Source: Boswellia sacra
Taxonomy: Eukaryota; Streptophyta; Magnoliopsida; Sapindales; Burseraceae
Assembly (NCBI GenBank): GCA_013180625.2
Contig: SNVD02011186.1
Coordinates: 186,001-250,000 of the forward strand
DNA: 64,000 nucleotides
Direction: 5' to 3'
Numbering within the stretch: the stretch's first letter is position 1; each line of letters begins with the position of its first letter. The position numbers and the translations under genes were made by a program. Under the pieces are notes generated by a model. It was not told where the DNA came from. It searched no databases and was given only the letters and a program-made list of their open reading frames with translations. Shown here in pieces: positions 14,899 to 53,690 of this stretch.

Positions 14899-15140
14899 GA
14901 AAGAAATAAATACGAATTTTTAAAAAATTATACAACCCGGGTTTTAATCTCGGGTTATTACAAAACCCGGCTCCGCCCAGGGTGCCCCGGCCCCGGCCCC
15001 GGAAAAAAAATTCCGGGGAATTTCCTGGGGCCGGATTCAAAAACTTAATGCCGGGGATCGTCGGCCTCGGCCCCGGCCTCGGGTTTTGCCATCCCTAGTG
15101 ACCACCCTTCGTGAAGTGAAGTCCTAGGTCAGGTACTGCA

Positions 15141-18529: not shown

Positions 18530-18539
18530 CTCCTCCTTG

Positions 18540-20216
18540 ATGCATATTCTAGTAACTCCAATTAATCCTCGAAGCAATTCGAATTTTTCTCGTGATAATG
18601 CTTTTGTAAAAATGTCTGCAAGTTGCTCTTCAGTACGACAATATTGGAGCTCTATTTCTTTTTTTTGCTTCTACTTCTCTGAGAAAGTGATATTTTATCG
18701 CAATATGTTTAGTACGGCTATGGAAGACAGGATTTTTAGCCATTGCTATTGCTGACTTGCTGTCACATTTAATCTTTGTAGCTTGATGTTGTGCTTCTCC
18801 CATATCTTCTAGTATACGTCTCAGCCAAATTGCTTGACTTGCTGTATTTGCTGCTGCCACATATTCTGCTTCTGCTGATGACTGTGCAACATTATCTTGT
18901 TTCTTGGATGTCCATGAGAATATTCCTGAACCCAAAGTGAATGCATATCCAGATGTACTCTTCATGTCATCGACTGATCCAGCCCAGTCACTATCTGTGT
19001 AGCCAATCAATTTTCCTTCAGCAGTGGAGTTAAACCAGATACCGTAATCTTTTGTTCCCTGCAAGTATCTGAGAATTCTTTTACCAGCCCCATAATGGAC
19101 TTGTGTAGGATTTTGCATGAATCTTGAGAGAAGACTTGTAGCATACATGATATCAGGTCTTGTTGCCGTTAAGTAGAGTAGGCTTCTAATGAGGCTTCTG
19201 AATTGTGAAGCATCTGCCTTTCCTGAACCATCATCCTTTCTCAATTTTTCATTAGTAATTAGAGGAGTTGCTACTGACTTGCATTCATTCATGTTGAATC
19301 TTTTCAATAGACTTTCAGTATATTTTTTCTGAGATATGAAGATTCCAGACTTTCTTTGGCTTATTTCGATGCCGAGAAAGTAGTGCATCAAATTCAAGTC
19401 TGTCATCTCGAAAGTCTTCATCATATCTTCCTTAAATTCTTTGAGCAATTTCTCATTGTTGCTAGTGTAGATAAGATCATCCACATATAATGAAACAATA
19501 AGCATGTTGTGATCTTCTGTCTTAGTGTAGAGAGTCTGTTCACATTTGCTCCTCCTGAATCCTTGTTTTGCGAAGTACTCATCAATTCTACTATACCAGG
19601 CTCTTGGAGCTTGTTTTAATCCATACAATGCTTTTCTAAGCCTTAGAACTTTATCTTCTTTTCCTTGGATCATGAATCCTTGAGGTTGTTCTACATAGAT
19701 CTCTTTTTCAAGGAATCCGTTCAAGAATGCTGACTTCACATCTAGTTGATAAATCTTCCATTTCTTTTGAGCAGCTAGTGCAATAAGGGCTCTAATTGTG
19801 TCTAGACGTGCAACTGGAGCAAATGTCTCATTGTAATCGACTCCATATTGTTGTGAGTAGCCTTTTGCGACTAGTCTTGCTTTGTGTTTTTGAATTGAAC
19901 CATCGGAGTTGAGCTTTGTCTTGTAAATCCATTTTACTCCAATGATTTCTTTATCTTTAGGATAGTCCACCAACTCCCAAGTATTATTTTTCTCGATCAT
20001 ATTTATTTCTTCTTGCATAGCCTTCACCCACACTTCTTGCTTTGAAGCTGCTTCATAACTTTCTGGCTCTATTGTAGTGAAGTTACAAGATTCATAAATA
20101 TCAACAAGAGATCTCACCTTCCTTGGCGGTGTCTCTGGAGAAGATTCTTCTTATTGAAGGGAGTCTTCATGTTCTGAAATTGGAGAATCGGTTGAAGTTC
20201 TTGTTTCAGAATCTGA
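18540..20216 (-). pseudogene. Copia-1 reverse transcriptase and RNase H
   Basis: Continues the same frame as gag-integrase, past a second in-frame TAA near 20153. The RT is well preserved (WVKAMQEEI start; GVDYNETFAPVARLDTIRAL; YGLKQAPRAWYSRIDEYF; catalytic YVDDLIYTSN), followed by RNase H (YTDSDWAGSVDDMKSTSGYA; SSAEAEYVAAANTASQAIWL). Near 18660 an eight-A run shifts the frame by one base; in the other frame the usual C-terminus (..[18 protein letters not shown]) continues almost to the 3' LTR. The near-identical LTRs and only three small lesions imply a recent loss of function. Confidence 0.9.
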
Positions 20217-23200
20217 TTATTCAGTTACTGCTTGTTGTTGATGTGGAGGTAGTGATTGAAATGGAACTATGATATTTTTATTTTTAACTTTTTCTTCATC
20301 CCAGTTCCATGAAGCATTTTCATCAAATTCCACATCTCGACTAATAATTATTTTCTTGGACTTGAGACTGTAGATTCTATAGCCCTTGGATTGAGTACTG
20401 TAGCCCAAGAATATTCCTTTTTCTGTTTGTTCATCTAGCTTGCTTCGTTTCTCCTTTGGAATGTGAACATAGCATATACAACCAAAAACTTTGAGATGTT
20501 TTGCTGATGGCTTACGTCCAATCCATGCTTCAACTGGAGTCTTATTTTGGACGGCTTTTGTTGGACATCTGTTAAGGAGATAGACTGTAGTGTAGACTGC
20601 TTCTGCCAAAAATATGTTTGGTAGGCCTTTATCTTTTAGCATTGATCTAGCCATCTCCATCACCGTTCTATTCTTTCTTTCAGATACACCGTTTTGCTGA
20701 GGAGCGTACCCAACTGTTAATTGATGTTCCACTCCTTCATCTTCACAAAACTTGTCAAATTGGTTGGAGGTGTACTCTTTACCACGGTCACTTCTTAGAG
20801 CTTTTATTTTGTGACCACTTTGATTTTCAACATAGGCCTTAAACTTTTTAAAGATCTCAAAAACTTGTGATCTTTCTCGAAGAAAGTAGACCCAAGTCAT
20901 TCTTGAATAATCATCAATGAATAAAATGAAGTACCTATTCTGATTGAGCGAAGCAGTTCTCATTGGACCACATACGTCAGTATGTACTAGTTCTAATAAT
21001 TTCCTTGCTCTCCATGCCTTTCCAGATGGAAATGATTGACGTTGTTGCTTCCCAAGTAGACAACCTTCACATACGCCATCTTTCTCTCTGATATCAGGTA
21101 GGTCCTTCATCATCTTTTTCTGATGAAGAATTCGTAATCCATGAAAGTTGAAATGACCGAATCTTCGATGCCACAACCATGAGTCATCATGTTGTGCCTT
21201 CATTACTGCTTCTTTAGCATATCTCCATTGGAGAGGGAAATTACGTTGCTCCATCTTTACTTTAGCAATCACTATGCTTTTATTCTTTTTATCATAAATT
21301 GTGCATGTATCACCTTCAAAGTGTAGAGAATAACCATTCTGGATCATTTGACCCACACTGAGCAGGTTTTGTTTCAAGCTAGGGACTAATAAGACATTCT
21401 GGATGAACCTCGTTCCCTTCTCTGTCTCCACAGCAATTGTCCCTTTGCCTTTGGCTTCTACTAGAGCACCATTTCCCAGTCTGACTTGTGATTTGTTTGT
21501 AGTATCAATATTACAGAAAATACTTTCATCACCAGTCATATGATTGCTACATCCGCTGTCAATATACCACTTGTTGCTCTTTTCTTCTGATGCGGCTTGA
21601 CAGGCGTAGAACAATATGCCACTTGTATCCTTTTTTTCTGAATAGTTGGCTTGATGGCTTGGTTTTAATCGATAGTCTTTTTCTAAGCACCCAAATTTCT
21701 TACAATTGTAGCATTGTGGTTTGCCATGATGCCAACAATTTTTCTCCAAATGGCTTATTTTCTTACATATGCCACAAGGAGGATATTTTCTATTTTCTTT
21801 ATTTCTAGAGCCGTCTCCTCCTCTAGAAATTTCTTTTGATTTTTTGGGCTCATATTTGGGCTTTGGAGAATGAAAATTAAATTTTGATTGAAATGCATTT
21901 TCTAATGATTCATTTTTATGCATCTTTCTTTTTTCATACGCTTCTAATGAGCCCATTAATTCTGTCACTGAAAGTTTAGTTATGTCTTTTGCTTGTTCAA
22001 TAGTGATGAACACTTAAATATGCATGTTTTATAAGAGTTTAGTTCATCATATTGCATTAATAGTGTCATTAAATTCCTCAACTTAAGCATATTTGTAGCA
22101 TTTGTATCTTTGGAATTAATTCCTCTTAATTTTGGTTTTGTTACAGGTTCGGTAAAATGGGCATAACTTTCTATTTATAGATCAGAATGGTGCAAATATT
22201 AATGTTTTGGAAAGCTTGATTCAATTGTCTACAAGATTGCATTTCACAAGCATCATCAAATTCGGGCTCTTAGTGGACCAAAATTGGGCTTGAAATGAAC
22301 CCATCTACAGTCTCGGCCCAGTCTGACCAGGCCTCAGTATTTGGACCGTATCTCTCAAAATACGTATCCAAATTGTGCAAATCAATATGTTCTAGAAAGC
22401 TGAGAGAAATATCTATAACTTTGATGAAGACATATGATTAAAATTCACAACATTTCGATGTCAAAATTGATGGTCAAAGTCGGTGCCTAATGATCCCAAT
22501 TGTCAAAGATATTTACAACTAATATTTGACAATTATGCCCTTGTAATTTGACAAGTTTGCCCCTGGATGTATCTATAAATAGAGGTGCCTTGTGACCCAT
22601 TAGGGCATCTTGGCCTTGGCTGGAACATTTTGGCTTTGGCTAGGATCTTGTATTGTGTTTTGTGTGTTTATGTTATTAATGAATTTCCTTTTTCTTGCAT
22701 TTTATTTTCTTTCTATTATAATGTTCTTCTAATTTCTCTTTTGCTAAGGTGAAAGAGTGAAACCCTTGATATGAGAATAAGGATTCTCTAAACCTTAATA
22801 TGTGCTTAATAATCTTAATCTTATAATGTTTATTCAATATGATTTATATTTAATTTCTTAATCAATCTTGACACCACTCGTAAAGTGGAGGTCTTGATCC
22901 ATTGTCGACAATCCTTGGCACATCAAATGCTTGGATCCTTTCTAGATGATGTATGGTTCTTCCTTACCGACACGAATCTAGTTAGGAACCTTGATTTGTT
23001 GTAGACATATGATGATTGGCACATTGGATGCTTGAACCCATTTACAAGAAGTGGTATAAATATTGGTAATGAAACAAATATAATTCATATAACTAAAATG
23101 GGTTAATTATCCTTATTTGAAATATCAAGGGCGGATCCCCTAACCTTAGCCTTCATTGTTATTGTGTTAATTCCTCTTGTATTTTAATTATTCTATTGTT

Positions 23201-24070
23201 TATGAACTTTTTATTTTATTTACTATGGTAGGTTCTACCACCTTATGAAATTGTTCTTTAATTTACTATGGTTGGTTATACCACCTATTTCCATGGATGG
23301 TTTTACCTCCTCTTGCTTTTTGTTTTATATTTGAATGGTCGGTAATACCACCTACCATCTTACATACTTGTTGATATTATCATGTCACCTCTTTGAATCA
23401 CCCATATCACATTTGTTTAGCTTATAATTTGTAACGCTTAAATTCCCTTCCTCGTGGATCGACCCCGGTCTCACCGGGTTTTATTACTTCGACACTCCTA
23501 TACTTGGGAGACAATCCTTTTTCGGATGTGACAAATAGAAATCACTATTGAATCATATCTATCAGTGATAGTAACTAATATTTTCTCTACAATTCTTTTA
23601 TCAGTAATATTATCTCCATAAATTCTCAGTTGGTTTACTATCTCCTTGAGTCTAGAGTAATAATCTCTAACAGTCTCAGATTCTTTCATTTTAGTATTCT
23701 CAAAATCTCTTCTTAAAGTTTGTAGTACAGAAAGTCGTACCTGCTCATCCCCGTGGAACTCCTTCTTTAAGATATCCCACGCTTCCTTGGCGCTTGTAGC
23801 TTCAACAATTCTTGGAAATATATCGGCTGATAATGCTTGTTGAATAATAAAATGCGCCTTTGAGTCTTTTTCTTGTAGATTTTCCAACCTCTTCTGCTCT
23901 GCTTCAGATAGACTAGAAATATCTTCTGGAGTTTCAAATCCGTTTTGGATGATACTCCATAAGCCTTGAGACTGAAAGAATGTCCTCATCTTAATACACC
24001 AGTAATCAAAGTTTTCGCCATTGAATACTGGTACTGATACTGGCATTGATGAGGTACTTGATTCGGCCAT
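20217..24070 (-). pseudogene. Copia-1 gag, protease and integrase (interrupted)
   Basis: Gag starts at the ATG at 24070 (MAESSTSSM..; UBN2/DUF4219-type Copia gag: VFNGENFDYWCIKMRTFF) and runs to 23534. It is then split by a solo LTR (22004-23533) and resumes in frame at about 21998 with EQAKDITKLSVTELM. Domains follow in order: a CCHC knuckle CGICKKISHLEKNC, a second degenerate knuckle (CYNCKKFGCLEKDY, missing its His and last Cys), protease YIDSGCSNHMT, the integrase zinc domain (HRRFGHFN..CEGCLLGKQ) and the catalytic core (HTDVCGPM; SDRGKEYTS; QQNGVSERKNRTVMEMARSM). It ends at a TAA at 20217-20219 that lies in frame with the RT below, so it is a nonsense mutation and not a domain boundary. 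Confidence 0.9.
22004..23533 (+). mobile_element. Solo LTR of family S inside Copia-1 gag
   Basis: A 1530-bp sequence starting tgatgaacactt and ending ggatgtgaca. The 5-bp duplication aatag lies at 21999-22003 and 23534-23538. Excising it and one duplication rejoins the gag frame exactly. No internal coding region, so it is a solo LTR. A TATA box, tataaatag, lies near 22572 in plus orientation. Related copies occur at 58339, 63547 and (antisense, truncated) 38728. Confidence 0.9.
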
Positions 24071-24109
24071 GATAGCGAATAATTTATCGCCCCACAATAA
24101 CCGAACGAA

Positions 24110-24121
24110 GCTCTAATACCA
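24110..24121 (-). promoter_or_regulatory. Copia-1 primer-binding site
   Basis: On the minus strand tggtattagagc, one mismatch from the initiator-methionine tRNA primer site tggtatcagagc, one base inside the 5' LTR. Confidence 0.8.
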
Positions 24122-24122
24122 C

Positions 24123-24567
24123 TGTTAGAAAGTAAAATATATAAAATATTTGATTGTATTGAAAATGATTTAAATCAATACAACCTTAGCTAGCTATAGA
24201 ACTCTAGTATAGTGAGCACCGTTTCACTTGAACACTAATGCACTAGCTATTTTTTCTTCATACAATTTGGAAGTGCAATTGCCTATTTATAGATGTAATA
24301 GGCGGTTACAAAAGTCGGTTTCACCATTTGTTTAATAATTATTTGAAGTCGGTGCATGGTGTCTAGAAATTGCTGGAAAGAGAAAGTTCATTCGGCTGCA
24401 TGATATTTGCATGGCTGCATGGTCTAGTAGCTTCAGGACTCCCTTACGTCGGTTGCATGTTTGCTGGCTCTCTTGTCCCACATCTGCCGACATCAATCTT
24501 GGCTTCTCATTGGCTGATTATCAAGACTACCAACTTTGACTTTGAGAATTTGCATCACTTTTCAACA
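24123..24567 (-). repeat. Copia-1 5' LTR
   Basis: Partner LTR, 445 bp, about 99.5% identical to the other by eye. It carries the element's promoter region. Confidence 0.95.
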
Positions 24568-27015: not shown

Positions 27016-27882
27016 AATTTAAATTTGAAGACTATATGTTTAGAGTTCTCTCTCTCTTTAACCATTCAAATTTTTTTCTCAATTTGTCAAAAACAAATCT
27101 TAGAGTTAGAAAATAATTATTGGAGATTTTTAATATTTATTGGGTGGCCACATAGGTTGCAACCCTTTCACCTACATTGGTAACAATTCTCTGAAATATA
27201 TGAACAAACGACGTTGATTTGTTATTGTAAAGAGCAATAAACGATGGATAATTAAGATAAGCATTTGTTTCTGAGTGTAATTCATAGAGCAAAGAAGATT
27301 CACATAATCTTTTGCTATAGCATCATAGATCAAACCCGTGTCAAGTGCTCAATTAGGATCAATTTGGCCAGCTCCCATGGCTAAAGGTGAAGCAATTAAT
27401 GTGTAGTTACTCCAACTGCCGTCTCGGATAGGGTTTTGAGTGTTATCCAATGGGTTTGCTGTGGTCACCATTGTAGAACTAATAGCAGCTAGACTCTAAT
27501 CCTTGTGTGTGCCTCGAAGAAGCACAGCCACACTAGCAACATGAGGGCAAGCCATTGATGTCCTAGAAATAATATTGTAGTCATACTGGACAAGAGTATA
27601 TTTGAACCAATTTGTGTTGTAGCGAGAATTGGAAGCCGAGCAGCCAAAACTTTTGATCCTATTGCCATTATATCTGGCTTTAAGATTCCTTGACAGCTTG
27701 GTGAAGGACCTCTAGAAGTATAGAAAGTTGCAGTTAGTGCAGGCTTTGTCCCCAAAACTGTTTATTGGAACTTGATGCTCGCTAAAGGTTTATCATGAGC
27801 AACTATGACACATTTTTATATGGTTGGCACATCTTTGGGGCTAATCACAATGCCAGGAAAAGTCATCCTATTTATGAGATAA

Positions 27883-28122
27883 TGTTAGTTAGTTGCTCTT
27901 AGGACTGTAACTCCACGTGTTAGATAAATATTGTTTATGCTTCCTTATACGTGTCCACATTTCTTTATGTTTCCCGAAATATGTCCATGTGTCCTGTATG
28001 CTTCCATTTTATTTGTGTTTTTTCAGTTATTAAAATGAGTTTGTCCTAGTCTTTAGGAAGTAGTTAGTTTGTTTAAGACATGTTGCTGTTCATGGCTTGA
28101 TTCTCGGCTACTAAGTTAGTTG

Positions 28123-28165
<43 letters not shown>

Positions 28166-28272
28166 AAGCTTTAAGCATCAATGTAGCGTAGAATTCTCAG
28201 TTTGCATTCCCTTATCCTTCTTCAGTATCAAACAACTCTTCACTCTTTTATTTTTTTACTCTAAAACTAACA
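27883..28272 (+). repeat. Copia-2 5' LTR
   Basis: Starts tgttagttag, ends aactaaca. Contains a TA microsatellite at 28124-28162. Confidence 0.9.
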
Positions 28273-32261: not shown

Positions 32262-32634
32262 TTTTAGTTAACTGCTCTTAGGACTATAACTTATCCACGT
32301 GTTAGATAATTGTTTTATGCTTCCTTAGATGTGTCCACATTTCTTTATGTTTCCTAAAATATGTCCACGTGTCCTGTATTTTTCCATTTTATTTGTGTTT
32401 TTTCAATTATTAAAATGAGTTTGTCAAAGTCTTTAGGAAGTAGTTAGTTTGTTCAAGACATGTTGCAGTTCATGGCTTGATTCTCGGCTACTAAGTTAGT
32501 TGTTTTTTTAAATATATATTGTAAGCTTTAAGCATCAATGTAGCGTAGAATTCCGAGTTTGCATTCTCGTATCCTTCTTCAAAACCAAACAACTTTTCAA
32601 TCCTCTATTTTTTTTTTAATCTCTAAAACTAACA
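32262..32634 (+). repeat. Copia-2 3' LTR
   Basis: Starts ttttagttaa (mutated from tgttag), ends aactaaca. A purine tract gcatggagaag precedes it. Confidence 0.88.
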
Positions 32635-32940
32635 GATAAATTGAAACAAATATTGCTCCACTTATATGTGACTTCATCTATTTGGTCATGCAGAGACTCA
32701 TTTTTGTCACACAAGATGATAGCATTAGTTGGAGCTTCAGCTAATAATTGAGTTGAGTTGCATGCTAAGGAAGTTATGTTGTGAACTAAAGGAAAATTTT
32801 CTCGCAAAGCACTACCAGGGAACATAGACCATCTGACAATGGTTTGTCCACTCTCCAGAGTCCAAACGTCAGCAAATGAACGATCAATATTGCTTGCAAC
32901 AACAGTTAAGGCCTCAGGGAATTCCATTGTGCAAGCTTCC

Positions 32941-35449: not shown

Positions 35450-36412
35450 CTTGGCCAATAGGTTGTAGCCCCTTCACCCACATTGGTAATAGTTTTCTAA
35501 AATGTCTAAACGAATGATGTTGATTTGTTATTATAAAGAACAATAAACGATGGATAATCGAGATCAACATTTGGGTTGGACCCGTTGTAACTGTTTGATC
35601 TTTTAATGGCCAATATTTGTTTCTAGGTATAATTCATAGAGCAAATAAAGTTCATATAATCTTGTACTATAGCGTCATAGATCAAACCCGGTCAAATGCT
35701 CGATTAGGATCAATTTGGCCTACTCTATGAAACAATTAATGTGTAATTAATCCAACTGCTGTCTTGGATAGGGTTTTGAGTGTTATCTAATGGGTTTGTT
35801 GTGGTCATCATTGCAGACCTAATAGCAGCCGAACTCCAATCCTTGTGTGTGCCTCTAAGAAGCGCAGCCATGCTAGTAGCATGAGGGCTGGCCATTGATG
35901 TCCCATAAATAATATTGTAGTTATTGGACGAGATTATATTTGAACCAATTTGGGCTGAAAAGCGAATTGGAACCCAAGCAGCCAAAACTTGTGATCATAG
36001 TGCCATTATATCTTGCTTTAAGATTCTTAGACAACTTAATGAAGGACCTATAGAAGTATAGAAAGCTACAGTCGGGGTAGGCTTTATATCCAGAATTGTT
36101 TGTTGGACTTGATCCTTGCTAAAGGTTTATCATGAGAAACTGCGACATATTTGTTTATAATTAGCACATCTTTGGGGCTAATCACAATTCTAGGAGAAGT
36201 CTTCACGTATATAGCATCATCTAAAACAAGTATGGGTCTACGCACATGTGACTCATGGATAACATCTATTTGGTTAAACAAAAACAAGGTTTCTTTGCAC
36301 AAGTTGATGGCATCAGCTAGAGCTTCAGCTAATAATTGAGTTGAGTTGCATGCCGAGTAAGTCATGTTGTGAACCAAAGGCAAATTTTTTAGCAAAGCAT
36401 TAGTAGGGAACA
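35450..36412 (-). pseudogene. Subtilisin-like protease, copy B
   Basis: Paralogue of copy A on the same strand. From 36412 downward: MFPTNALLKNLPLVHNM, ACNSTQLLAEA, then the segment preceding the serine block (about 36084-36300), AAWVPIRFSAQIGSN, and the catalytic serine block GTSMASPHATSMAALLRG with its Ser intact, then SAAIRSAMMTTTNPLDNTQN and PIQDSSW. Frames change several times and the C-terminus has stops. At 36413 the gene is cut off by an LTR-like sequence, so the N-terminal half is absent. Confidence 0.8.
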
Positions 36413-36945
36413 TGCGTTGGAAATATTTATAATAAATCTAAAATAATAAAATCAAACAACATTGAAGAAATAATAAAATAAAAATTAAATAAATATAATA
36501 AGTAAAGAGATAAACTAAAAAAAATGAGGCTTGAGCACTTGGGAGGCATGTTAAAGGTATTGTCCTAAAACCAAAGAGTCCTCCCCTCGTGCAGATAATA
36601 TCGGCACTCAGGGGTTCCAAGACATAATCCAATGCTCACAGCCTATCTCCTCGATGAACACGATCATTGGAAGAAAATAACTTGTCTTCATCTATCATGG
36701 TAGTTCAAAAATATAGAAAATACTCAAATATATTATCATTGTGTTAGAACCTTGAGACTCCTTTATATAGTAGTCTCCTAGCTTGGTTAACTTACAAACT
36801 AAATCTTGTAACTCCTAAGCTATAAAGTCTTAATAAAACTTACAACTTATAAAATAATAAACTATTGGAACTCATGAACTTAATCTCATATTAAAATTTG
36901 TAACTCATACTATAAATATTTGTTTAAAACCTTTTATCTTCAACA
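36413..36945 (-). repeat. Probable LTR of a minus-strand element
   Basis: Begins tgcgttgg exactly where subtilase copy B breaks off and ends cttcaaca, followed by gtcctccacaaaagg, whose complement is a purine tract like that before a Copia 3' LTR. Read on the minus strand it starts TGTTGAAGATAAAAGG and has a ctatataaagg TATA-like box near 36770. No second LTR or closing target duplication (gaaca expected) was found. Confidence 0.45.
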
Positions 36946-39539: not shown

Positions 39540-41877
39540 CACTAGTAGAAAAATGGCCTACAGCAACGTGCAGGTGCATGTTGCTGTTCTGCATGTTGCG
39601 AAAAGCCCATGACATTCCGCAACGCGCATTGCACGTTGTCGTAGGCGCTTTTGCTTGTTGTCGTAGGCCCTTTTGCTTGTTGCCGTTGAAGATTTGGCAA
39701 CGTGCATCGCACTTTGTTAAATACTCAACAATTACAAACTTTTAGCAATGTGCATTGCACATTGTTGTATCTCAAATAGCAACGTGCAATGCACGTTGCT
39801 ATATATCATAAATGGCAACGTGCAATGCACGTTGCAATATTTGAGGCGACAATTTTTTTGGCAACGTGCAATGCACGTTGCCGTAGGTATAATATATATT
39901 TTAAAAATAAATACATATATATATTTATAAATTTTTGGATAATTTGTAATGCTTGTAATATTTTATAACTATATACATCATAATAGAAATGATTACATTC
40001 AAGTTCACAATTATATATAACATCAAATTGCATATTTAAATTGAAATGAATACAATTACAATAGTAAAAGTTCAAGTATTTTTTTTCTATAATAGTAGCC
40101 TAAATAGCTTAAAATAAGAAAATAGCCAACACTACAATTGGAAGTAACACAAATGAAACACATTAGAAATACTTTCATCTTCTCAAAGCAATCTTTCTGA
40201 CTTATTCTAGCTCTGTCTCTTTTGTTTCCTCTATTTTTTTATCTTTCTGCTTTGCTGTTTGCATTTCAATTATCTGTCTAGCCCTTCACCAACAGAAATG
40301 AACTAGCAATAATTAAAAAAGAGAAAGAGTGACCATTATATGTTGAGTTTTTAGCTCTTCAAGTCTTCAATAGCTACCAATCAATGAGTGGAGAGAGAGT
40401 GAGAGAGATAGATGACATATAAAGAGACAACAAAGAAAAGAAAAGATAGAGAGCATTTAATAGTAAGTCCCACAAAAGAAAAGATACTAAAATGTTTGTT
40501 TGTGCATTCATTCATTCATTCTCTTTCCAACATTTAAAAGTATAGTAATAGTATGTGGCTAGATTCTTTCAAACAGTATTTACCTAAACTAACCCGATAG
40601 TATTTGATTAATCATCCTCTTGTAATGTATGGCATATATTGCAGTGCTCCGATTACCTTAAAAGCTTTGCTTTTTTCCTATAATATAGATGACAATTATT
40701 TAAAAAAAATGTTCCATAAGTTATAAAAGAAAGTAAAATCTTACCTTGAATGCTTTGGAAGACCTTTTTCTTTAACAAAAATCTGCCAATCTTTAGTAGC
40801 TCAGCTGGCCACCCCATCGTCAAATGATAGATAAATATTAGTCATTAGACAGGCACAATTCAACATTAGACATAGTACTAGTATTACTGGAAAAGACATT
40901 ATAGATCTTAGATTTGAGTAAAAGTAAATACATACCCCAAGCAAAGAAGAGAGAGTACCTTGTTCTTGGTGATAAAGTTAACATTAATAGACAGCATCTT
41001 GCTCATCCTTCGCAAATTATAAAATAAGCAAAAAGCATTACATATGAACATTGCAAAATAAAGCAATATATGTAGATCAATATATTAATTTGTGTCCAGT
41101 ATACATGGGCAAAGCAAAGGAATTTTTTTTAATTAATAATGGACTTTGATTTTGCAATTACTAAGTGGCTTGCACATGGATTTTTATTTCTTCTTTAACC
41201 TTTAAGCTTTTAATCTCTAATTTATAATAAGTCTTTGTGCTTGGGTTTAATTAATTAATTACTTTTGATGTTGCCATCACTGCAGATTTGAAAAAGATTG
41301 ATAAATAAATAGAAAGAAAGAAATTGCACTTAAAGCATTAAAGAATTTAGATAACAAGCATAAACGCATACAAAACAAGAATAAAAGTTGCAGTTTAATC
41401 TATTAAAAACTAAGTGAAATGGTTTGTACATACAGACCAATATGCATTTTGAGGAAAAGCAAGACAAATAGAAATCAAACTAATGGATTACTTTATGATT
41501 TTCCAACACAATTTACAAAACTAGGAAGCCTAGCTAGCTGCAAGTTTTACTCTAATCACAGCTGCAAACATTTATGAAAATAAATAAATAATTCAAATTC
41601 ATGTCATCAAACATTTATAACAGAACTTAAGATGGATGCAACTCACTCCAACCGATAAAGCTGTGAAATGACCGAGATCTGCAAACATAACTTCAGTAGC
41701 TGGTGAGAACCATAAATGCCCAAACAATATAACAATTTCGGCATGATATGAGATTTAATCAACAATCAACTGAGAAACCACTTCAACTCAACCACATCAT
41801 GAGATGTGTTTGCACACCAATCAACAATTTAGTAAATGCATCAACTGGAATTTATTTATAAAATTGTACAAGAGTCT
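39540..41877. mobile_element. CACTA element 2, left part
   Basis: Starts cactagtagaaaaatgg inside an antisense S-LTR. The next 350 bp contain about seven copies of a palindromic subterminal motif, gcaacgtgcaatgcacgttg(c), typical of CACTA transposase-binding arrays. The right terminus is missing: the sequence runs unrelated into the Athila LTR at 41878. It carries intron-exon-like host sequence, including a potassium-transporter exon. No transposase ORF. The rest (39900-41600) is AT-rich with possible exon pieces (such as near 40750-40830 on the minus strand) that I cannot assign. Confidence 0.7.
41647..41720 (-). pseudogene. Captured HAK/KUP potassium-transporter exon fragment
   Basis: On the minus strand, after an accag acceptor-like site, the frame reads ATEVMFADLGHFTALSVG and meets a gtgagt donor-like site. 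The (T)GTEAMFADLGHF.. block is a strongly conserved part of plant HAK/KUP/KT potassium transporters. It is a single exon of about 60 bp inside CACTA element 2, so I infer capture of host gene DNA. Flanking exons were not found. Confidence 0.6.
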
Positions 41878-43291
41878 TGGTTACGCCCAAAATATACCGC
41901 GGTTATTGTAGTATACGTTGAGGTGTCGAATCCACAAGGAGGCCTTTGATAAAAGAGGTTAGTAAAACAAAAAATATAAAAGATAATAAAGATATAAAAT
42001 TTAACTTTGAAGTGATTGGTTCTAAAGAAAATACAATGTTTAATAATTGGAAACAATCGATGGTAATTAAGAAGTAAGGCATCGAGAATCACTTATATGT
42101 TTTGTAAATCTAATCTCCACTTTGATTTAATAATTATAACTCAATTGAAAGTTTCACATCCCAAACAATCAATCGGAAAATATGTATAGTATAGCATAAA
42201 TGATAAACACATGTATTTGATATGCATAAACTCTTTACAAGCAATATTTACCAACAACATTCATCCTTACAAGTTATCCAAGAGCGACAATATATCACAT
42301 GACAATATTGTAGTAAAGGATTAACTCATAAAACGAAACTACCAGTAACAATTATAATTCAACATGAATCACATAAAGAAAGCATGACTGAATTTATATG
42401 AAATTGAGAATTATAATTTCTGGATTAAAAAGAAATCACAAGATGAGAAAGAGTTTAACACATAAACAAACATACAATCTTTATAGCCCTTGAGGTAGAA
42501 TGAAAGTGGAGAAATAGATAAACTACACATACAAGTTCATCTCTAGCCTTACCAAGAGTTCTAGCCTAACTTACAATTCATTCTTATCATTTCTAAAGAG
42601 AAAATACAAGAGAGAATTGCAATATACAATGATAAAATGTGAACTCAAATGATTTTTTCTCTCCCCATTCAATTCCTCAAGTTGTCCTTAAATAGGTGAT
42701 GAAATGGAACTATTACACCAAACCTCCACCAATTTTTCCACAATGTCGGCCACCAACTTGCAGCTGATTTTTGACCACCAAATGGACCGAATTGGGCTTT
42801 GTGGAAAACATGAAAGTTGTAGCATTTTGTCTCAGCTTTCCAGGGCCACAGATTCATGCAATTTGGACAAGTATTCTCTGAGATATGGCCCAAATACTGG
42901 ACATGGGTCGGGCTGAGAAACAACTACATTTTGGTTTTGTTGTGTCTCAATTTCGGCCCATCAAATGTTAGATTTTTGGGCTTTTGATTGTTCTTCAACT
43001 TTGTGTAAAATTGAGACATGTTGCTCCAGGTTCAATAATCTCTCCATTTTGATCTATAGATTGAGAGTTGTGTCCATTTTATTAAACCTAAAAAAAATGA
43101 TTTCTATTAATCACAATTTAAGGACAATACTTTATTTCAAGATAAAGACTAAAGAAAATGCAAAAGAAATGAAACAAATGTAAAAGAGGCATAAGCAAAA
43201 TAATTATGCTAAAATATCATAAAAGCTTTATAATACTGTTCAATTAGCATTAATTATTTATGCTTAAGAGTGTACTTTCATGCGTTTATCA
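41878..43291 (-). repeat. Athila 3' LTR
   Basis: A 1414-bp LTR. Its partner has a deletion of about 37 bp (lacking the segment around 42815-42840) and about fifteen other small differences, roughly 1% by eye. Confidence 0.92.
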
Positions 43292-44587: not shown

Positions 44588-45232
44588 TTACAAACGAAGT
44601 GTCAGATCCAATTTTCTCTTATTGCTCATTTCCACTGACCAATTAATTTGAGATGCTTCAGGGTCTGGTTCATAAACAAAAGCTTGCAATTTATCAATTA
44701 GTTCATCAGCAGTTGAGGCAGAGACAAGGATCCGTTGTGCTGATTGTGAGATAAATCTTTGTTCCACAGCTTGATTAACAAAACACAATAAACAATCAAA
44801 GAAATTATTGACATTCAACAAACCTATGGGTTTCTGGTGGATATTGAGTTGGGCCCAAGAGACAACTTGAAAGATTTCTTCCATTGTTCCAAAACCTCCT
44901 GGTAAAGCAATAAAGGCATCTGCATTTACAATCATACGAGCTATGCGTTCATGCATGGATGAGACCTATAATTCCTCTCCAACTGTTTTCCCAGCAACGT
45001 TAACTAAAGCTTTAGGAATAATGCCTAAAACTTGACTTCCTCTTGAGTATGCAGTTGTTGACACACACCCCATTAACCCACGGTTACCTCCCCCATAAAT
45101 TAAATGAAGTTTTCTCTCAGCTAGAACCTTACCAAGATTATGAGCTGCTTCTAAAAAAGCTATATCATTACCAGGCTGAGATCCACAAAATACACAAATA
45201 TTTCGGAATCGACGAGCTGAGGTTCCCTCCAT
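44588..45232 (-). pseudogene. LOG: LOG-like cytokinin-activating enzyme, intronless, carried by Athila (one nonsense codon)
   Basis: 215 codons from the ATG at 45232 (MEGTSARRFRNICVFCGSQP). LOG enzymes hydrolyse cytokinin riboside 5'-monophosphates to free cytokinin plus ribose phosphate in the cytosol. Seen in order: FCGSQPG, IYGGGNRGLMGCVS, VLGIIPKALVNVAGKTVGEE, MHERIARM, the signature ALPGGFGTMEEIFQVVSWAQ (PGGxGTxxE with its catalytic Glu), HQKPIGLLNVNNFFD and a C-terminal SNKRKLDLTLRL. A single TAG at 44966-44968, where related proteins have Lys (GEEL-x-VSSMHER), splits it; both halves are in one frame with no indel. Plant LOG genes normally contain several introns, so the intronless form implies capture through RNA. 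Sense with pol, downstream of the cysteine-rich ORF. Full length for the family. Confidence 0.85.
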
Positions 45233-45463
45233 TTTGATACCTAACTATGTATATGCAAATGAAGAACATGAGATGTATTTATAGAATGCAAAAAGGTGGT
45301 ACAATAATGACATCTATATAGGTAGCTCAACTGTTTGTCTAACAAACGTTGAAAATAAAAATAGAAACTCAAAAATAATAGCAAGAGTGCATATGTACAG
45401 GTAGTTGTGATTGTGGCTCACATCTTCCTCTGGTTTTACGTCCAGTAACGGCTTAAACACCTT

Positions 45464-46012
45464 CTATGAGTTGGGGATCTGCTTCCCATCCAATTTTCTT
45501 ATAAATTGACAAACAGGGTCGTTTTGAGTCAGATTCCCGAGACTATAGCGTTCTTGCTCTTCCCGAAATTGTGTCCATAATCTTAAAATCTCTCGATGCA
45601 CAAGTCCACAAGGATACGTCTCAAGAGTCAACAAGATATTATCTAGAGACTCCTTACTCAGTCCATCCTTAATGAACTGAATCTTATCTTCTCGATTGAC
45701 AGACCCATATCCTAAAGAGCGACATCGCTTGTTACAGGTCCATCGTGCACATTTGTGACAAACTTGTAATTTATTTTCTCTTCGCTTTTTCGCGTAAGAG
45801 CTTTTACCCAAACCAGGCATGAAGGAAACAAAGGCTTTTGAACAGTCACCAGATAATCGAACTTTGGCTTCAATTAACCATCGTATATCAACAGGTAAAC
45901 CCATGAGCATTAACAATTTTAACCTTGCAAACCGTGCTTTGTAAATTTTGAGCAATGTATTTGGAGGAAGAAAAGGAAAATGTCTACGAAGGTTTGAAAG
46001 AATCGTATCCAT
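45464..46012 (-). CDS. Cysteine-rich basic protein, carlavirus nucleic-acid-binding-protein-like, carried by Athila
   Basis: An intact 182-codon ORF in sense with pol, 384 bp after the integrase stop and 231 bp before the LOG-like gene. Residues about 70-130 hold the notable part: GLGKSSYAKKRREN followed by CHKCARWTCNKRC (C-x2-C-x4-C-x3-C) and ..REDKIQFIKDGL. Carlavirus cysteine-rich proteins (Pfam Carla_C4-type; RNA binding, silencing suppression) share the layout G-x-S-x-YA-(R/K)-x-RR ... CH-(R/K)-C ... C-x3-C ... FI-x-G. The N-terminal about 70 residues are aliphatic and the C-terminal about 50 (LETYPCGLVHREILRLWTQF) are unassigned. Longer than the usual 100-130 residues of viral homologues. 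The reading frame is supported by its integrity; the viral kinship rests on motif layout only. Alternative: an Athila-specific zinc-binding protein. Confidence 0.55.
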   Translation of the reverse strand: MDTILSNLRRHFPFLPPNTLLKIYKARFARLKLLMLMGLPVDIRWLIEAKVRLSGDCSKAFVSFMPGLGKSSYAKKRRENKLQVCHKCARWTCNKRCRSLGYGSVNREDKIQFIKDGLSKESLDNILLTLETYPCGLVHREILRLWTQFREEQERYSLGNLTQNDPVCQFIRKLDGKQIPNS

Positions 46013-46396
46013 TTTGAAAGGTAAAAGAATGCACGATTTTTGTTTGGGTTACAGTTTTTTGGGAACTGAAAAACCGACTTAATTAGTCACGGAGTACCGT
46101 ATCCGCCACTTAACCGGGAAGTAAAATAAAACACGCAAAAGAAAATAAAAGCAAAAACAGAAAATAAAGTAAAAATTATAGGACAAACATATAATAAAAG
46201 CAAGACAATGAGATAAAGAAAGCAAAAATAAAGTTAAGATATGGTACATATAGATGATAGAAACAAAGACAAAGTCAAGATATGGGGTAGATAAATAATA
46301 AAAGCAAGGCAATGAGATAATAAAAACAAAAATAAAATCAAGATATGGTACAAAAGTCAAGATATGGTACAGATAGATGAGACAGATGGAACCTGA
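46013..46396 (-). other. Spacer with short repeats between integrase and cysteine-rich ORF
   Basis: About 380 bp with imperfect repeats of aagatatggtacagatagatga-like words (46230-46380). The hydrophobic open frame across it is a by-product of the repeat. It could hold the signals for expressing the downstream genes, but none is recognisable. Confidence 0.5.
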
Positions 46397-48845
46397 TTAA
46401 TTAGGATAGACAGGAGGCTCAAGAGAGATCTCCTCGAGACACATAAACTGACTTTCCCTTTCCACATAATTTTTCAACCGTTGCCTATTAACTTTGAAAA
46501 TTCGCCCATCAGTGGGGTCCTCAATCTCCACCGCTCCATTGGGAAAAACGTGCTTTACGACAAATGGTCCAGTCCATCGAGATCTCAACTTTCCAAGGTG
46601 TAAATGCAATCGAGAATCATAAAGATAAACTCGTTGATTTAGCTTAAAGTTTTTCTTCAAGATTTGTTTGTCGTGAGCCGCTTTCATCTTAGCCTTGTAA
46701 ATCTTGGAGTTGTCATAGGCATCATCCCGCAATTCTTCTATTTCAGACAATTGTAACTTTCTTTGAAGACCTGCAACACTCAAATCAAAGTTAAGGGCTT
46801 TGACAGCCCAATAAGCTTTATGTTTTAGCTCAACAGGTAAATGACAAGCTTTCCCATAGACAAGGCGATAAGGAGACATCCCTAGAATAGTTTTATAATC
46901 AGTGCGGTAAGCCCATAATGCATCAGAAAGGTGTAAAGACCAGTCTTTGCGATTCGGGTTAACAGTCTTTTCTAGAATCTGCTTGACCTCCCTATTTGCG
47001 AGTTCAGCTTGCCCATTTGTCTGTGGATGGTATGCGGTGGAAATCTTATGAAGAACACCATACCTGCGCATCAAAGCTTCAAAAGAACGGTTACAGAAAT
47101 GTGTCCCTTGGTCACTGATGATGACACGTGGCGTACCATACCTAGACAACACGTTTTCTTTTAAGAATTTTACCACGGTTGTGTTATCATTAGTACGACA
47201 AGCCATAGCCTCCACCCATTTGGACACATAATCAACAGCTAGAAGAATATAAAGATAACCAAAAGATGGAGGAAAAGGTCCCATAAAGTCAATACCCCAA
47301 CAGTCAAATATCTCAATAACAAGAATAGGGCTAAGAGGCATCATATGACGGCGAGATAAAGCCCCCAACTTTTGACATCTTTCACATGAACGACAAAAAT
47401 TGTTAGTATCTTTAAACAAAGTGGGCCAATAGAGTCCACACTGTAAAATTTTTGCAGCAGTCTTTTTTATTGAGAAATGACCACCACAAGCATTGCCATG
47501 GCAAAAGTTTAAGACACTAGCAATTTCACTATCAGGAATGCAACATCGCATAATTTGGTCAGCGCAATATTTGAAAAGATAAGGATCATCCCAATAAAAA
47601 TTACGCACCTCAACCAAGAACTTACGCTTATCTTGTACACTCCAGTCAGATGGAACTTCTCCGCAAACCAAGTAATTTACAATATGGGCATACCAAGGTA
47701 CTTGGCTTATAGTGAAAAGATGTTCATTAGGGAAATCATCTTGAATGGGTTGGACATTAGTGGAATCATGGAACTCAAGACGGGACAAATGATTTGCTAC
47801 AACATTTTCGACGCCCTTCTTGTCCTTAATCGTTAGATCAAATTCCTGCAAAAGAAGAATCCATCTAATTAGGCGGGCCTTAGCATCCTTTTTAGAAAAA
47901 AGGTACTTCAGAGCTGCATGGTCAGTAAACACAGTAATAGGTGAACCAATTAAATAAGAACGAAATTTGTCCAAGGCAAAAACAACAGCTAATAGTTTCT
48001 TTTCAGTAGTAGAATAATTCATTTGAGCATCATTTAAGGTTCTACTAGCATAGTAAACAACAAAGGGTTTGCCCTCCCTTCTTTGACCAAGGACTGCTCC
48101 TACAGCATAGTTACTGGCATCACACATAATCTCAAATGGAAGGCTCCAATCAGGTGACTGCATAATAGGGGCAGTGGTGAGTTTGGCAATTAATGTCTGA
48201 AATGCGTCCTCACAAGCTTGAGTCCACACAAATTCAGCATCTTTCAATAAGAGGTTACACAATGGTCTAGATATAGAAGAAAAATTTTGTATAAACCTCC
48301 TATAAAAACCAGCATGCCCTAGAAAAGATCGGACATCTTTTATCGTTTTAGGTGTAGGTAATTTAGAGATCAACTCGATCTTAACCTTGTCAACCTCCAT
48401 TCCTCTTTCTGAAATAATGTGTCCCAAAACAATCCCAGAAGACACCATGAAATGACATTTTTCCCCATTAAGCACAAGTCCTTTTTCTTCACACCTACTC
48501 AAAACAGATTTTAAGTTAAGTAGACATGAATCAAAAGAGTTACCAAAAACAGTCAAATCATCCATAAAAACCTCCATGCTTTTTTCAACCATGTCTGAGA
48601 AAATACTAAGCATGCAACGTTGAAAAGTAGCTGGTGCATTACATAATCCAAATGGCATCCTACGAAAAGCATAAGTACCAAAAGGGCATGTGAAGGTAGC
48701 TTATCCTGATCCTCTAGAGCTATCTCTATCTGGTAATATCCTGAGTACCCATCGAGAAAGCAATAAAAAGGATGACCAGCTACACGTTCCAAAATTTGGT
48801 CAATAAAAGGCAATGGAAAGTAGTCTAAAGAGTGGTTGCCAAAAT
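46397..48845 (-). pseudogene. Athila reverse transcriptase, RNase H and integrase
   Basis: An N-terminally deleted RT begins in one frame (48840-48700: [37 protein letters not shown]). After a frameshift near 48700 an uninterrupted 753-codon frame runs to 46397: [16 protein letters not shown], catalytic [15 protein letters not shown], RNase H ([49 protein letters not shown]), the integrase HHCC domain ([13 protein letters not shown].. [11 protein letters not shown]) and catalytic core ([46 protein letters not shown]), then the C-terminal SH3-like region ([20 protein letters not shown]). The length and openness of this segment are striking beside the damage upstream. Confidence 0.9.
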
Positions 48846-49910
48846 CGAGTCCTTTTATCCTGTGAGTCAAAAACACCAAACACATTAGTTGTATCATCAG
48901 GATAAAATAAATCTTCAAATTCAGAATCAAGAAGGTAGTCTAAAGAGTCAAAATCCTGTTTTCTATAAGCCTCCTCTGAGATAAGTGTGTCTATCATATA
49001 TGAATGGTAGCAATCGTCCTCCTCTCGTGGTTGCTTTCCAATATGAAAAATATTCACCTCAACAGTCATATTACCAAATGACAATTTCATGAGACCGTTC
49101 CTGCAATTAATAAAAGCATTAGCAGTGGCAAGAAAAGGTCTCCCTAAAATAAGAGGAATTTTGGACTCCATATTAACTACAGACTGAGTATCCAAAACAA
49201 GAAAATCAACAGGGTAATAAAATTTATCAATCTGTAATAAAACATCTTCCACTATTCCCCGTGGTTTCTTGACTGATCGGTCGGCCAATTGTAGAACTAC
49301 GGATATGGGTTTGATCTCTCCAAGTCCTAATTGTAAGTAAACCGAATAGGGCATGAGATTGACACTTGCTCCCAAGTATAACAATGCTTGACTGATTTCA
49401 TGTGTCCCAATCTGGCAAGAAATTATAGGACACCCTGGATCTTTGTACTTGGGTGGGGTTTTCTGTTCAATGACTGCACTTACCTGTTCCGTCAAGAATG
49501 CAGTCTTATTGACATGGTGCTTTCTTTTGATGGTGCATAGATCCTTGATAACTTTGGCGTAAGCCGGAACCTTTTTGATTACATGCAACAAGGAAAGATT
49601 AATCTTAACTTGTTTTAAGTGTTCTAGAATCTCACCTTGAACTTTCGAGTTTTTCCCATTAGATCTGAGAGCTTAGGGAAAAGGCATTGGAATCGAAAAT
49701 TTCTTTTCAAGTTCTTTCTCAAAAATGTCCTCCTTTTGTGGGAGAACATCTTTGTTTTCCATGGTAGTGTTGATTGGCAATATAGGCTCATTTAAGATCT
49801 TACCACTTCGAGTAGTGATGGCATTTACCTCTTTGAGATTTTGTGTGTCAGAAATAGAGGCTTGTGCCATGTGTTGCCCTTTTGGATTAGATTGAGTTTG
49901 AGATGGCAAC
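48846..49910 (-). pseudogene. Athila protease region
   Basis: 49909-49673 reads MPSQTQSNPKGQHMAQASIS and VNAITTRSGK, the conserved gag-protease linker. From 49591 the protease domain is open: PGCPIISCQIG, then LLYLGASVNLMPYSVY where Athila proteases normally have (C)DLGAS, so the catalytic Asp is Tyr here. QLADRSVKKPRGIVEDVLLQ and ILGRPFLATANAFINCRNG follow. The frame ends in DSQDKRTRFW, where it runs directly into the middle of RT: the protease-RT linker and about the first 80 residues of RT are deleted. Confidence 0.8.
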
Positions 49911-50184: not shown

Positions 50185-51272
50185 CTAGCTAGGGTTATAG
50201 GTTTCAGAATGGGGTGAATAAGGCTTTTTGTACATCCCTAAGGCGTTACATTGTTCCTCGTACACCCCTCTTATCTCACTGTAAGTTGGACAATCCTGAG
50301 CTAAGTGTTCCACCCCTCCACAAATAAAACATGGATCTTGTGATTCAACTTTAGCAACTATATGGGTGACCTTCCTATCTTTGGTTTTCAAGACTTCCAA
50401 TTCCCTAGTTAAGACTTCTAATTGGGCTTTAAGGTTGTCCTCTTCCCTAAGATGGTAAATTCCACTAGATTGTGACCTATTTGTGCTATCTGTAGCACTA
50501 GGTCCAGTCCATGTGTGGGCTTTTTCAGCTAAGTCTTTGAGAAATTCTAAGGCTTCCTCAGGGTCTTTTTGAAGAAACTCCCCGTTGCACAGCATCTCAA
50601 CAAATTGGCGCTCCCTAATTGTTAGTCCCTCATAGAAGTAACTAACCAAGTGCCAATTTTCATACCCATGATGAGGACACATGTTTAACAACTCTTTAAA
50701 TCTCTCCCAAGTTTGGTACAAGGTTTCACTATCTTTTTGGGAGAAAGAGGAAATTTGTCTTTTCAGGCCGTTAGTCTTATGTTGTGGAAAATATTTGTTA
50801 AAAAACACTTGGGTCATTTCTGTCCAAGTTCCTATGGATCTCGGCCTTAAAGAGTATAGCCAACTCTTTGCCCTGTCTTTTAGAGAAAAAAGGAAAAATT
50901 TTAACCTGACAGAATCTATGGCATTGGCCTGACTATGAAAGGTGCCCACTACTTCTTCAAATTCTCTAACATGCACATAAGGGTTTTCACTATCTAAACC
51001 ATGAAAAGTTGGTAAAAGATGTATCATCCCAGGGTGAAAGTCCAATTTTGGTGTATTAGGTGGAAATATGATACATGATGGTGTGGCTGTGCGGTAGGAT
51101 GCAAGTAATCTTTTAGAGTTTTAACGGGGTTGTCCTCATGTTGGCTCATTGTATCAGAATTAGAAGATGAAGATGAACCAAGAATTGATTTTTCTTCGGT
51201 TGCAAAATCTTGTTGTGGTTCTAGTTCTGATTTTTTCATAAATCTCCCTCGTTTGTCTCTAGATTGCTTCAT
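50185..51272 (-). pseudogene. Athila gag
   Basis: Starts at the ATG at 51272 (MKQSRDKRGRFMKKSELEP). A single-base deletion near 51080 (after LKDYLHP) shifts the frame; the main body from about 51075 reads LDFHPGMIHLLPTFHGLDSE, the capsid-like segment (FFLFSLKDRAKSWLYSLRPR; VFFNKYFPQHKT; YFYEGL) and a CCHC knuckle CFICGGVEHLAQDC (about residue 240 of this frame). At 50185-50187 a TAG replaces the expected Trp codon after SETYNPS, and gag-like sequence continues beyond (50184 to about 49920) to a Gln/Lys-rich tail. Gag forms the virus-like particle and packages RNA; this copy cannot make it whole. Confidence 0.85.
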
Positions 51273-52281: not shown

Positions 52282-52299
52282 TCCCCGGCAACGGCGCCA
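52282..52299 (-). promoter_or_regulatory. Athila primer-binding site (tRNA-Asp)
   Basis: Minus strand tggcgccgttgccgggga, complementary to the 3' end of plant tRNA-Asp including CCA, the primer characteristic of Athila elements. Five bases separate it from the LTR. Confidence 0.9.
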
Positions 52300-52304
52300 A
52301 TTTT

Positions 52305-53690
52305 TGGTTACGCCCAAAATATACCGCGGTTATTGTAGTATACGTTGAGGTGTCGAATCCACAAGGAGGCCTTTGATAAAAGAGGTTAGTAAAACAAAAA
52401 ATATAAGAGATAATAAAGATATAAAATTTAACTTTGAAGTGATTGGTTCTAAAGAAAATACAATGTTTAATAATTGGAAACAATCGATGGTAATTAAGAA
52501 GTAAGGCATCGAGAATCACTTATATGTTTTGTAAATCTAATCTCCACTTTGATTCAATAATTATAACTCAATTGAAAGTTTCACATCCCAAACAATCAAT
52601 CGGAAAATATGTATAGTATAGCGTAATTGATAAACACATGTATTTGATATGCATAACTCTTTACAAGCAATATTTACCAACAACATTCATCCTTACAAGT
52701 TATCCAAGAGCGACAATATATCACATGACAATATTGTAGTAAAGGATTAACTCATAAAACGAAACTACCAGTAACAATTATAATTTAACATGAATCACAT
52801 AAAGAAAGTATGACTGAATTTATATGAAATTGAGAATTATAATTTCTGGATTAAAAAGAAATCACAAGATGAGAAAGAGTTTAACACATAAACAAACATA
52901 CAATCTTTATAGCCCTTGAGGTAGAATGAAAGTGGAGAAATAGATAAACTACACATACAAGTTCATCTCTAGCCTTACCAAGAGTTCTAGCCTAACTTAC
53001 AATTCATTCTTATCATTTCTAAAGAGAAAATACAAGAGAGAATTGCAATATACAATGATAAAATGTGAACTCAAATGATTTTTTCTCTCCCCCCATTCAA
53101 TTCCTCAAGTTGTCCTTAAATAGGTGATGAAATGGAACTATTACACCAAACCTCCACCAATTTTTCCACAATGTCGGCCACCAACTTGCAGCTGATTTTT
53201 GACCACCAAATGGACCGAATTGGGCTTTGTGGAAAACATGAAAGGGCCACCAGATTCATGCAATTTGGACAAGTATTCTCTGAGATATGGCCCAAATACT
53301 GGACATGAGTCGGGCTGAGAAACAACTACAATTTGGTTTTGTTGTGTCTCAATTTCGGCCCATCAAATGTTGGACTTGGGCTTTTGATTGTTCTTCAACT
53401 TTGTGTAAAATTGAGACATGTTGCTCCAGGTTCAATAATCTCTCCATTTTGATCTATAGATTGAGAGTTGTGTCCATTTTATTAAACCTGAAAAAATGAT
53501 TTCCATTAATCACAATTTAAGGACAATACTTTATTTCAAGATAAAGACTAAAGAAAATGCAAAAGAAATGAAACAAATGTAAAAGAGGCATAAGCAAAAT
53601 AATTATGCTAAAATATCATAAAAGCTTTATAATACTGTCCAATTAGCATTAATTATTTATGCTTAAGAGTGTACTTTCATGCGTTTATCA
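52305..53690 (-). repeat. Athila 5' LTR
   Basis: A 1386-bp LTR, same termini as the other. Abuts the primer-binding site on its inner side. Confidence 0.92.

Follow-up and report, generated by a model that had tools for sequence, protein, structure and literature searches.

An LTR retrotransposon with two genes downstream of pol

The window, i.e. the whole stretch of Boswellia sacra DNA that was analysed (64,000 nucleotides), holds one LTR retrotransposon of ~11.8 kb on its minus strand; the features of the element described below all lie on that strand. The 5' LTR (52304..53690) and the 3' LTR (41877..43291) were delimited by aligning them with each other: 1370 of 1417 columns were identical, and 32 were gap columns. 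The K2P divergence of the pair, 0.0117 over 1385 ungapped sites, translates into an age of 0.45–0.83 My at substitution rates of 1.3e-8 to 7e-9 per site per year. No clear 5-bp target-site duplication was found at the LTR ends of the window element. Adjoining the 5' LTR, we located by eye a primer-binding site (TGGCGCCGTTGCCGGGGA; 52282..52299), which, by comparison with the 3' end of tRNA-Asp, we take to be of the tRNA-Asp type.

Pfam matches and reading frames were used to outline the coding part. The gag gene (50185..51272) has a frame change near 51030 and a zinc knuckle close to its end; its portion 50185–51045 matched Retrotrans_gag (3.4e-21) and zf-CCHC (2.2e-4). A broken frame for the protease and the start of reverse transcriptase (RT) follows (48553..49591), in which the match to Asp_protease_2 (0.0038) fell below the cut-off. 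The end of RT, RNase H and integrase are encoded by an ORF of 753 residues (46397..48658; RVT_1, RT_RNaseH, Integrase_H2C2 and rve). The gag–pol region of this copy is thus disrupted at several places, within gag and near the junction of protease and RT. On the strand opposite to gag (50663–50769, plus strand), Rfam snoR71 (RF00097) matched with 59.6 bits (cut-off 40).

The domain order between the LTRs, gag-PR-RT-RH-INT, is that of Ty3/gypsy elements, the protease entering it with a match below the cut-off. The available text of PMC6317226 gives an additional archaeal-type RNase H (aRH) as a mark of the Tat elements; RT_RNaseH accounted for the RNase H models seen in the Pfam scan of the 753-residue ORF, a general scan rather than one with a dedicated aRH model. 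The element is a Ty3/gypsy retrotransposon, probably of the Athila type.

Two further genes lie between the integrase frame, which ends at 46397, and the 3' LTR. The first (45464..46012) is an ORF of 182 codons whose cysteine-rich product resembles viral nucleic-acid-binding proteins (Pfam Carla_C4 and Viral_NABP); we refer to it as NABP for short. The second (44588..45232), recognised by profile matches, is an intronless LOG-like gene of 214 codons. The first-pass annotation had placed both genes on the pol strand between integrase and the 3' LTR, and this arrangement was confirmed: one LTR pair encloses the module. It had also described both genes as whole. The NABP frame is indeed open, and the LOG signature PGGFGTMEE is present in an intronless gene, but the LOG-like gene of the window copy is not full-length: an in-frame TAG at codon 89 (44966..44968) splits it into ORFs of 88 and 122 aa. 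Some 180 bases past the LOG stop there is a poly-A run, which at first suggested a LINE-type retrocopy.

Copies and families in the host genome

Is this arrangement peculiar to one insertion? We searched the host assembly (638.6 Mb, 7431 contigs), in which the window NABP and the window LOG-like gene each matched at least 150 places. Taken together with the Pfam matches, these numbers exclude chance. The NABP of a second element family (F3, described below) also matched at least 150 places, with 90–100% identity among the matches listed. Since the NABPs of F3 and of the window's own family, F1, are 72% identical, and since the places at ≤90% identity on the F1 list are absent from the F3 list (contig and position compared by eye), the host genome holds at least 300 NABP places. 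A plant LOG-type query likewise matched at least 150 host places, many of them new; 145 of the 150 matches listed were stop-free.

From these searches we compiled 58 distinct F1-type copies, that is, 60 search loci less 12 repeats of the same place, plus 10 lower-ranked picks. Both genes were present in the same order in all 58 (one NABP was cut by a contig end), which rules out a one-off insertion and bears out the earlier proposal that the pair belongs to a retroelement lineage. The end of integrase was found in 47 of 48 search loci, the remaining contig beginning inside NABP; it was outside the reach of the 10 lower-ranked copies. The start of the LTR was found in 29 of 30 LOG-centred loci. 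Together, the LTR borders and the copies also rule out that the module is a separate, nested insertion. Intact frames were counted in 44 of the 58 copies for NABP, in 35 for the LOG-like gene and in 27 for both; these fractions are biased upward, because the copy lists were ranked by score, which favours intact copies.

Altogether, three element families with ~70% protein identity were recognised, each with NABP followed by LOG. F2 is represented by L154 (L156 and L157 have the NABP end only) and F3 by L155, with 1–3 copies per family. An integrase piece of F2 (267 codons), ~0.5 kb before NABP, is 65% identical to that of F1, with saturated dS and two stops. Its divergence is no lower than that of the module, which fits co-inheritance. 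In the F2 spacer between NABP and LOG (L156, L157), a series of similar units follow one another, their translation reading GDKCGGFVKPHRK or much the same; by eye, no such series is present in the F1 spacer.

Family F3 has a different upstream region. In copy L158, NABP is preceded by a gag-like, knuckle-bearing frame; the frame matched the window gag (BLASTP 8e-11), and the knuckle matched zf-CCHC at 0.035, below the cut-off. In copy L160, what appears by eye to be the part downstream of the gag-like frame leads to the NABP start. No tblastn match to pol or protease was found in L155, L158 or L160, each with ~1.2–1.4 kb upstream of NABP. F3 is apparently a family with gag and without pol (two copies; gag match in one). 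In L155 (C6751), the NABP frame breaks near its end, and the last 31 residues are those of the F1 copy L087, seemingly a sign of exchange between families F1 and F3.

Before NABP in the window copy, the sense strand is pyrimidine-rich and carries three 41-nt repeats (46077–46355, minus strand). The lower part of this stretch (46077–46175) is 82% alike in L160. A splice acceptor or a promoter is a possible function.

A related LOG gene and the origin of the clade

A LOG of the same clade turned up in a Mycobacterium assembly (L143; NZ_LZIL01000012.1, 1-4148). Because this contig has 33.9% G+C, vs. 70.8% in another stretch of that assembly, and carries a plant-type LOG, we take it as probable plant contamination in a public Mycobacterium genome. 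The gene is intact, intronless and 70% identical to the element LOGs. In a protein tree of 19 rows, the element LOGs and L143 formed one group (99/98), which joined the Arabidopsis LOGs weakly (82/61, with a long-branch warning).

The likeness extends upstream of the gene. A TATA-like box, TATAAATA, lies ~45 bases before the LOG-like ATG of the window copy (45276..45283), and its aligned counterparts are TATAAATA in L143, CATAAATA in F3 and a weaker CATAATAC in F2. By its position, it may be a promoter TATA box. The upstream homology between L143 and the element begins ~45 bases past the NABP stop; no match to gag, protease, pol or NABP was found in the 4148-bp contig, nor any NABP match in its assembly.

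Such a gene, standing by itself with a similar TATA region, is what one would expect if the LOG-like clade were a normal host gene subfamily, with L143 a host gene, and if the element had taken the gene together with its promoter. When L143 was used as a query, it matched at least 150 host places, many of them new; contrary to this expectation, the best among the matches listed were element-type copies at 70–72%. The L143 contig is, moreover, short, low in G+C and of uncertain source. We regard capture of the gene from such a host subfamily as a real possibility, if a somewhat improbable one.

The cysteine-rich protein

The window NABP matched Carla_C4 (4.5e-5) and Viral_NABP (7.2e-5), both above the cut-off, and another copy matched the same families at 2.2e-6 and 3e-6. 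All eight members that were aligned matched both families at E up to 1 (best 1.3e-6). The KKRR patch and the C-x2-C-x4-C-x3-C cluster behind it (residues 85–97; 45722..45760), both pointed out in the first-pass annotation, are present, and the four cysteines of the cluster are kept in 52, 49, 49 and 51 of 52 NABP copies, respectively. Searches of NCBIfam, PADLOC and PHROGs with NABP gave no significant match, and the AlphaFold model is unreliable (pLDDT 43).

The cysteine-rich NABPs of carlaviruses and betaflexiviruses (PF01623, PF05515) have the same layout, a basic patch and then a cysteine cluster. They differ from the protein described here in length and in cysteine spacing (for which general knowledge of the viral proteins served as the reference), and the present gene sits in an LTR retrotransposon. 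The carlavirus-like label given earlier is thus borne out weakly, by two Pfam families at E-values of 7e-5 to 1e-6.

E-values of this size would also suit a protein that is not of viral descent, namely a basic zinc finger born inside the element or derived from a host gene. Consistent with such a source, a pattern scan of viral contigs found no NABP relatives, and comparison with the PDB gave no significant relative. On the other hand, the two viral NABP families match overlapping stretches, above the cut-off in the two scored members, and the match recurs in every aligned member. A non-viral descent therefore seems to us unlikely, while still deserving serious attention.

The LOG-like protein: fold, pocket and tail

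When its stop was read as X, the window LOG-like protein matched TIGR00730 at 1.9e-51, and the second half of the gene matched Pfam Lysine_decarbox at 6.5e-31. A pattern scan of viral contigs with this second half found no relatives. The predicted model of the protein from an intact copy had a pLDDT of 82, with a low-confidence tail at residues 195–214; its best Foldseek matches were Arabidopsis LOG structures, with a TM of 0.93 by target. Profile, model and alignment thus agree on a LOG fold with the PGGxGTxxE loop. Identity to the Arabidopsis LOGs is ~50%, vs. an LTR divergence of 1.2%, and on this comparison with Arabidopsis a recent retrocopy of a host LOG was rejected.

We then compared the active site with that of CgLOG, in which R99 and E122 are catalytic, K100 lies at the adenine and the proposed prenyl pocket and E125 lies in the proposed prenyl pocket (PMC4979012, available text). 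The equivalents of R99 and E122 are kept in 51 and 52 of the 53 F1 rows, respectively, and in the sequences of the families examined. The pocket differs. At the K100 equivalent (the fifth place of MHxRK), all 81 LOG references have K; all families examined and L143 have I or M. At the E125 equivalent, three residues past the loop, E in all 81 references is replaced by Q in all families examined and L143. The references comprised 79 bacterial sequences, mostly from Lysobacteraceae, and two from Arabidopsis. The normal LOG motif with Lys was located, by motif, at 15 places in the host genome (reversed-pattern control: 0).

Does the protein, then, activate cytokinin? An ordinary cytokinin-activating enzyme, with which the element would raise cytokinin and so reach dividing cells or the germline, was the function proposed at first. 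The predicted fold and its closeness to the Arabidopsis structures would agree with it, as would the retained R99 and E122 equivalents and PGGxGTxEE loop. The change at the E125 site does not by itself rule out LOG activity, because MmLOG, a true LOG, departs there too, having Asp (PMC4979012, in the portion available). However, both pocket positions are altered in every family examined, and the same portion of that source reports, in summary and not mutant by mutant, that LOG activity was nearly lost when AMP-binding and catalytic residues were replaced by alanine. The NCBIfam equivalog score was also low (117.6 vs. a cut-off of 300, in a library made for prokaryotes). These changes weaken the case for raised cytokinin: judged from its residues, the protein is doubtful as a cytokinin activator, and we hold the enzyme reading to be improbable. 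A nucleotide-binding, host-directed effector would fit better.

The C-terminus offers a further feature. The window copy ends in LDLTLRL (44591..44611), an EAR-like LxLxL tail. As part of a KLDLxLxL tail, LxLxL was present in 53 of 53 F1 rows and in the F2, F3 and L143 sequences examined, and its Leu residues are kept across families while the Leu codons change synonymously. Upon shuffling, LxLxL arose in the last nine residues in 81 of 20000 trials; at any position in the protein, it did so in 3455. The conserved motif lies in a stretch that is predicted to be disordered (low model confidence), as in TOPLESS ligands with an EAR motif. To our knowledge, such a tail is absent from ordinary plant LOGs. 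Compared with the plant LOG phosphoribohydrolases At2g37210 and At5g11950, the element's protein hence has the same fold, catalytic Arg and Glu and nucleotide loop at ~50% identity; it differs in the intronless gene, the replaced pocket Lys and Glu and the EAR-like C-terminus.

Pathogen effectors that combine an EAR motif with TOPLESS are on record (HaRxL21, PMC7446885; Jsi1, PMC8126959; both consulted in part). Here, the motif is found in a retrotransposon protein, and TOPLESS binding is putative, this short motif being the basis of the EAR reading.

Selection on the two genes

Within F1, we aligned equal-length rows, 52 for NABP and 53 for LOG, after dropping 6 and 5, respectively, that were cut or of another length; rows with stops were kept. 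NABP changes seen once numbered 60 nonsynonymous (N), 26 synonymous (S) and 5 stops (N/S 2.31), and those present in ≥6 rows 9N:16S and no stop (0.56; Fisher p 0.004). The corresponding counts for LOG were 80N:27S with 7 stops (2.96) and 16N:13S with none (1.23; p 0.064). The singleton changes of both genes are close to the neutral N/S expectation of 2.25–3.28. When changes in ≤2 rows were compared with those in ≥3, p was 0.010 for NABP and 0.43 for LOG, the latter because the class of 3–5 rows held 12N:1S. For the end of integrase (23 ungapped rows), singletons were 47N:12S and changes above that class 9N:13S with 4 stops.

The fixed differences between two F1 subfamilies were 9N:14S for NABP (p 0.023) and 13N:12S for LOG (p 0.09). 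Pairs of intact copies across these subfamilies had dN/dS ratios (w) of 0.14–0.22 for NABP and 0.27–0.39 for LOG; in pairs with the lower-scoring copies L150–L153, NABP had w of 0.28–0.51, and the broken LOG of L151 gave 0.79. From these frequency and pair tests, we conclude that selection within F1 is evident on NABP, whereas for LOG the signs of it are no more than suggestive.

Between families, dN/dS was calculated by NG86, with both F1 subfamilies included in the LOG comparisons. For LOG, w was 0.14–0.17 between F1 and F2 (dS 1.21–1.38), 0.28–0.35 between F1 and F3 (dS 0.56–0.71), 0.17 between F2 and F3 (dS 1.26–1.33) and 0.19–0.21 between F1 and L143 (dS 0.95–1.09). The F1–F3 dS is lowered by the exchange between families in L155. 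For NABP (partial frames of 125–159 codons), w was 0.10–0.12 for F1–F2, 0.20–0.22 for F1–F3 and 0.12 for F2–F3. The overall ranges, 0.10–0.22 for NABP and 0.14–0.35 for LOG, are rough because dS is high. Nevertheless, in this comparison, which the first-pass annotation had suggested, neither gene has the look of neutral evolution.

Alternatively, the two genes might be captured cargo, pieces of host or viral origin that travel with the element and degenerate, serving no function. This view could draw on the copies not scored as intact (14 of 58 for NABP, one of them merely contig-cut, and 23 of 58 for LOG, including the window copy), on the neutral look of the singletons and on the non-significant LOG test within F1, but it is contradicted by the between-family w of 0.10–0.35, the intact LOG frames of F2, F3 and L143, the retention of both genes next to gag in those F3 copies that gave no pol match and the tail Leu residues kept through codon changes, and we judge it very improbable.

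Proposed role and relation to known elements

We consider it fairly probable that the element belongs to an old Ty3/gypsy lineage, probably of the Athila type, with two accessory genes after pol, and that its LOG-fold protein is an effector rather than a plain cytokinin enzyme. This view is based on the INT-NABP-LOG-LTR order in F1, the copy number, the three families, the low dN/dS between them and the two F3 copies in which NABP follows gag-like sequence with no match to pol. Both proteins, we infer, work to the element's benefit, their target being the host or the element's own RNA. Most likely, the NABP-like protein would bind the RNA of the element, in protection or packaging, or would counter silencing. 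As for the LOG-like protein, its retained catalytic Arg and Glu and PGGxGTxEE loop make it most likely that it can still bind a nucleoside monophosphate, though in an altered base pocket. Its KLDLxLxL tail would dock to some host partner, for which the TOPLESS co-repressor is the simplest candidate, and the protein would thus act as an effector, not as a plain cytokinin-activating enzyme.

A more specific version, which we put forward tentatively and think rather unlikely as a whole, is an effector kit of two proteins that would keep the element expressed: one would bind RNA in the manner of a viral protein, and the other would be a repurposed LOG fold, without the cytokinin pocket, whose EAR tail engages TOPLESS (or which senses a nucleotide and reports to TOPLESS). 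The kit is kept even in relatives seemingly without pol, and on the effector-kit reading it would therefore serve its bearer.

The use of the extra genes of LTR retrotransposons is mostly unknown, and an env-like gene is one of the extra ORFs known from Athila elements. Most OTA elements have extra ORFs, and tRNA-Asp is among the primers of non-chromoviruses (PMC6317226, as far as its available text goes); these traits and the Ty3/gypsy domains are shared by the present element. The extra Athila ORF-1 recorded there occurs in 16% of elements; here, the extra genes are NABP and LOG. Selected genes beyond gag and pol are held rare in LTR retrotransposons in the available part of PMC9289625. Ty3/gypsy consensuses from two Citrus species are listed there with a YgdH/LOG domain, as are, without a count filter, those of poplar, in line with Steinbauerova et al. 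2011, which that part cites. In the text available, the domain of these Citrus and Populus elements is listed without a NABP partner, a selection test or an analysis of pocket or tail. The same source describes an m6A demethylase domain in orchid Ty3/gypsy elements: there, too, a plant gypsy lineage gained an accessory enzyme domain, although the domain and the lineage are different ones. The novelty claimed in the first-pass annotation hence stands in part: a limited search of open-licence literature found no description of the NABP and LOG pair in an LTR retrotransposon, whereas a LOG domain in Citrus and poplar Ty3/gypsy elements is already in print.

Two genes of quite different background have been retained as a pair by three element families within a single genome, one of these families apparently lacking pol. 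The pattern, a LOG fold in which the catalytic residues are kept and the cytokinin pocket is not, with a tail typical of co-repressor ligands, makes a testable claim, and the module gives an opening for studying what plant retrotransposons do to their host.

Other features of the window

A young element, labelled Ty1/copia-like by eye, occupies 18085–24567; its 445-bp terminal repeats are 99.55% identical, and it has open frames of 495, 598 and 199 codons. Repeated fragments ~83–86% alike, with subtilase-like pieces recognised by eye (GTSMASPH), lie at 27145–28272, 32264–32825 and 35452–36413. A gene-like stretch is present twice, at 657–2950 and 15097–18083, in copies that have diverged to 82%, and the frame 977–1435 looks, by eye, like a piece of a cytochrome P450.
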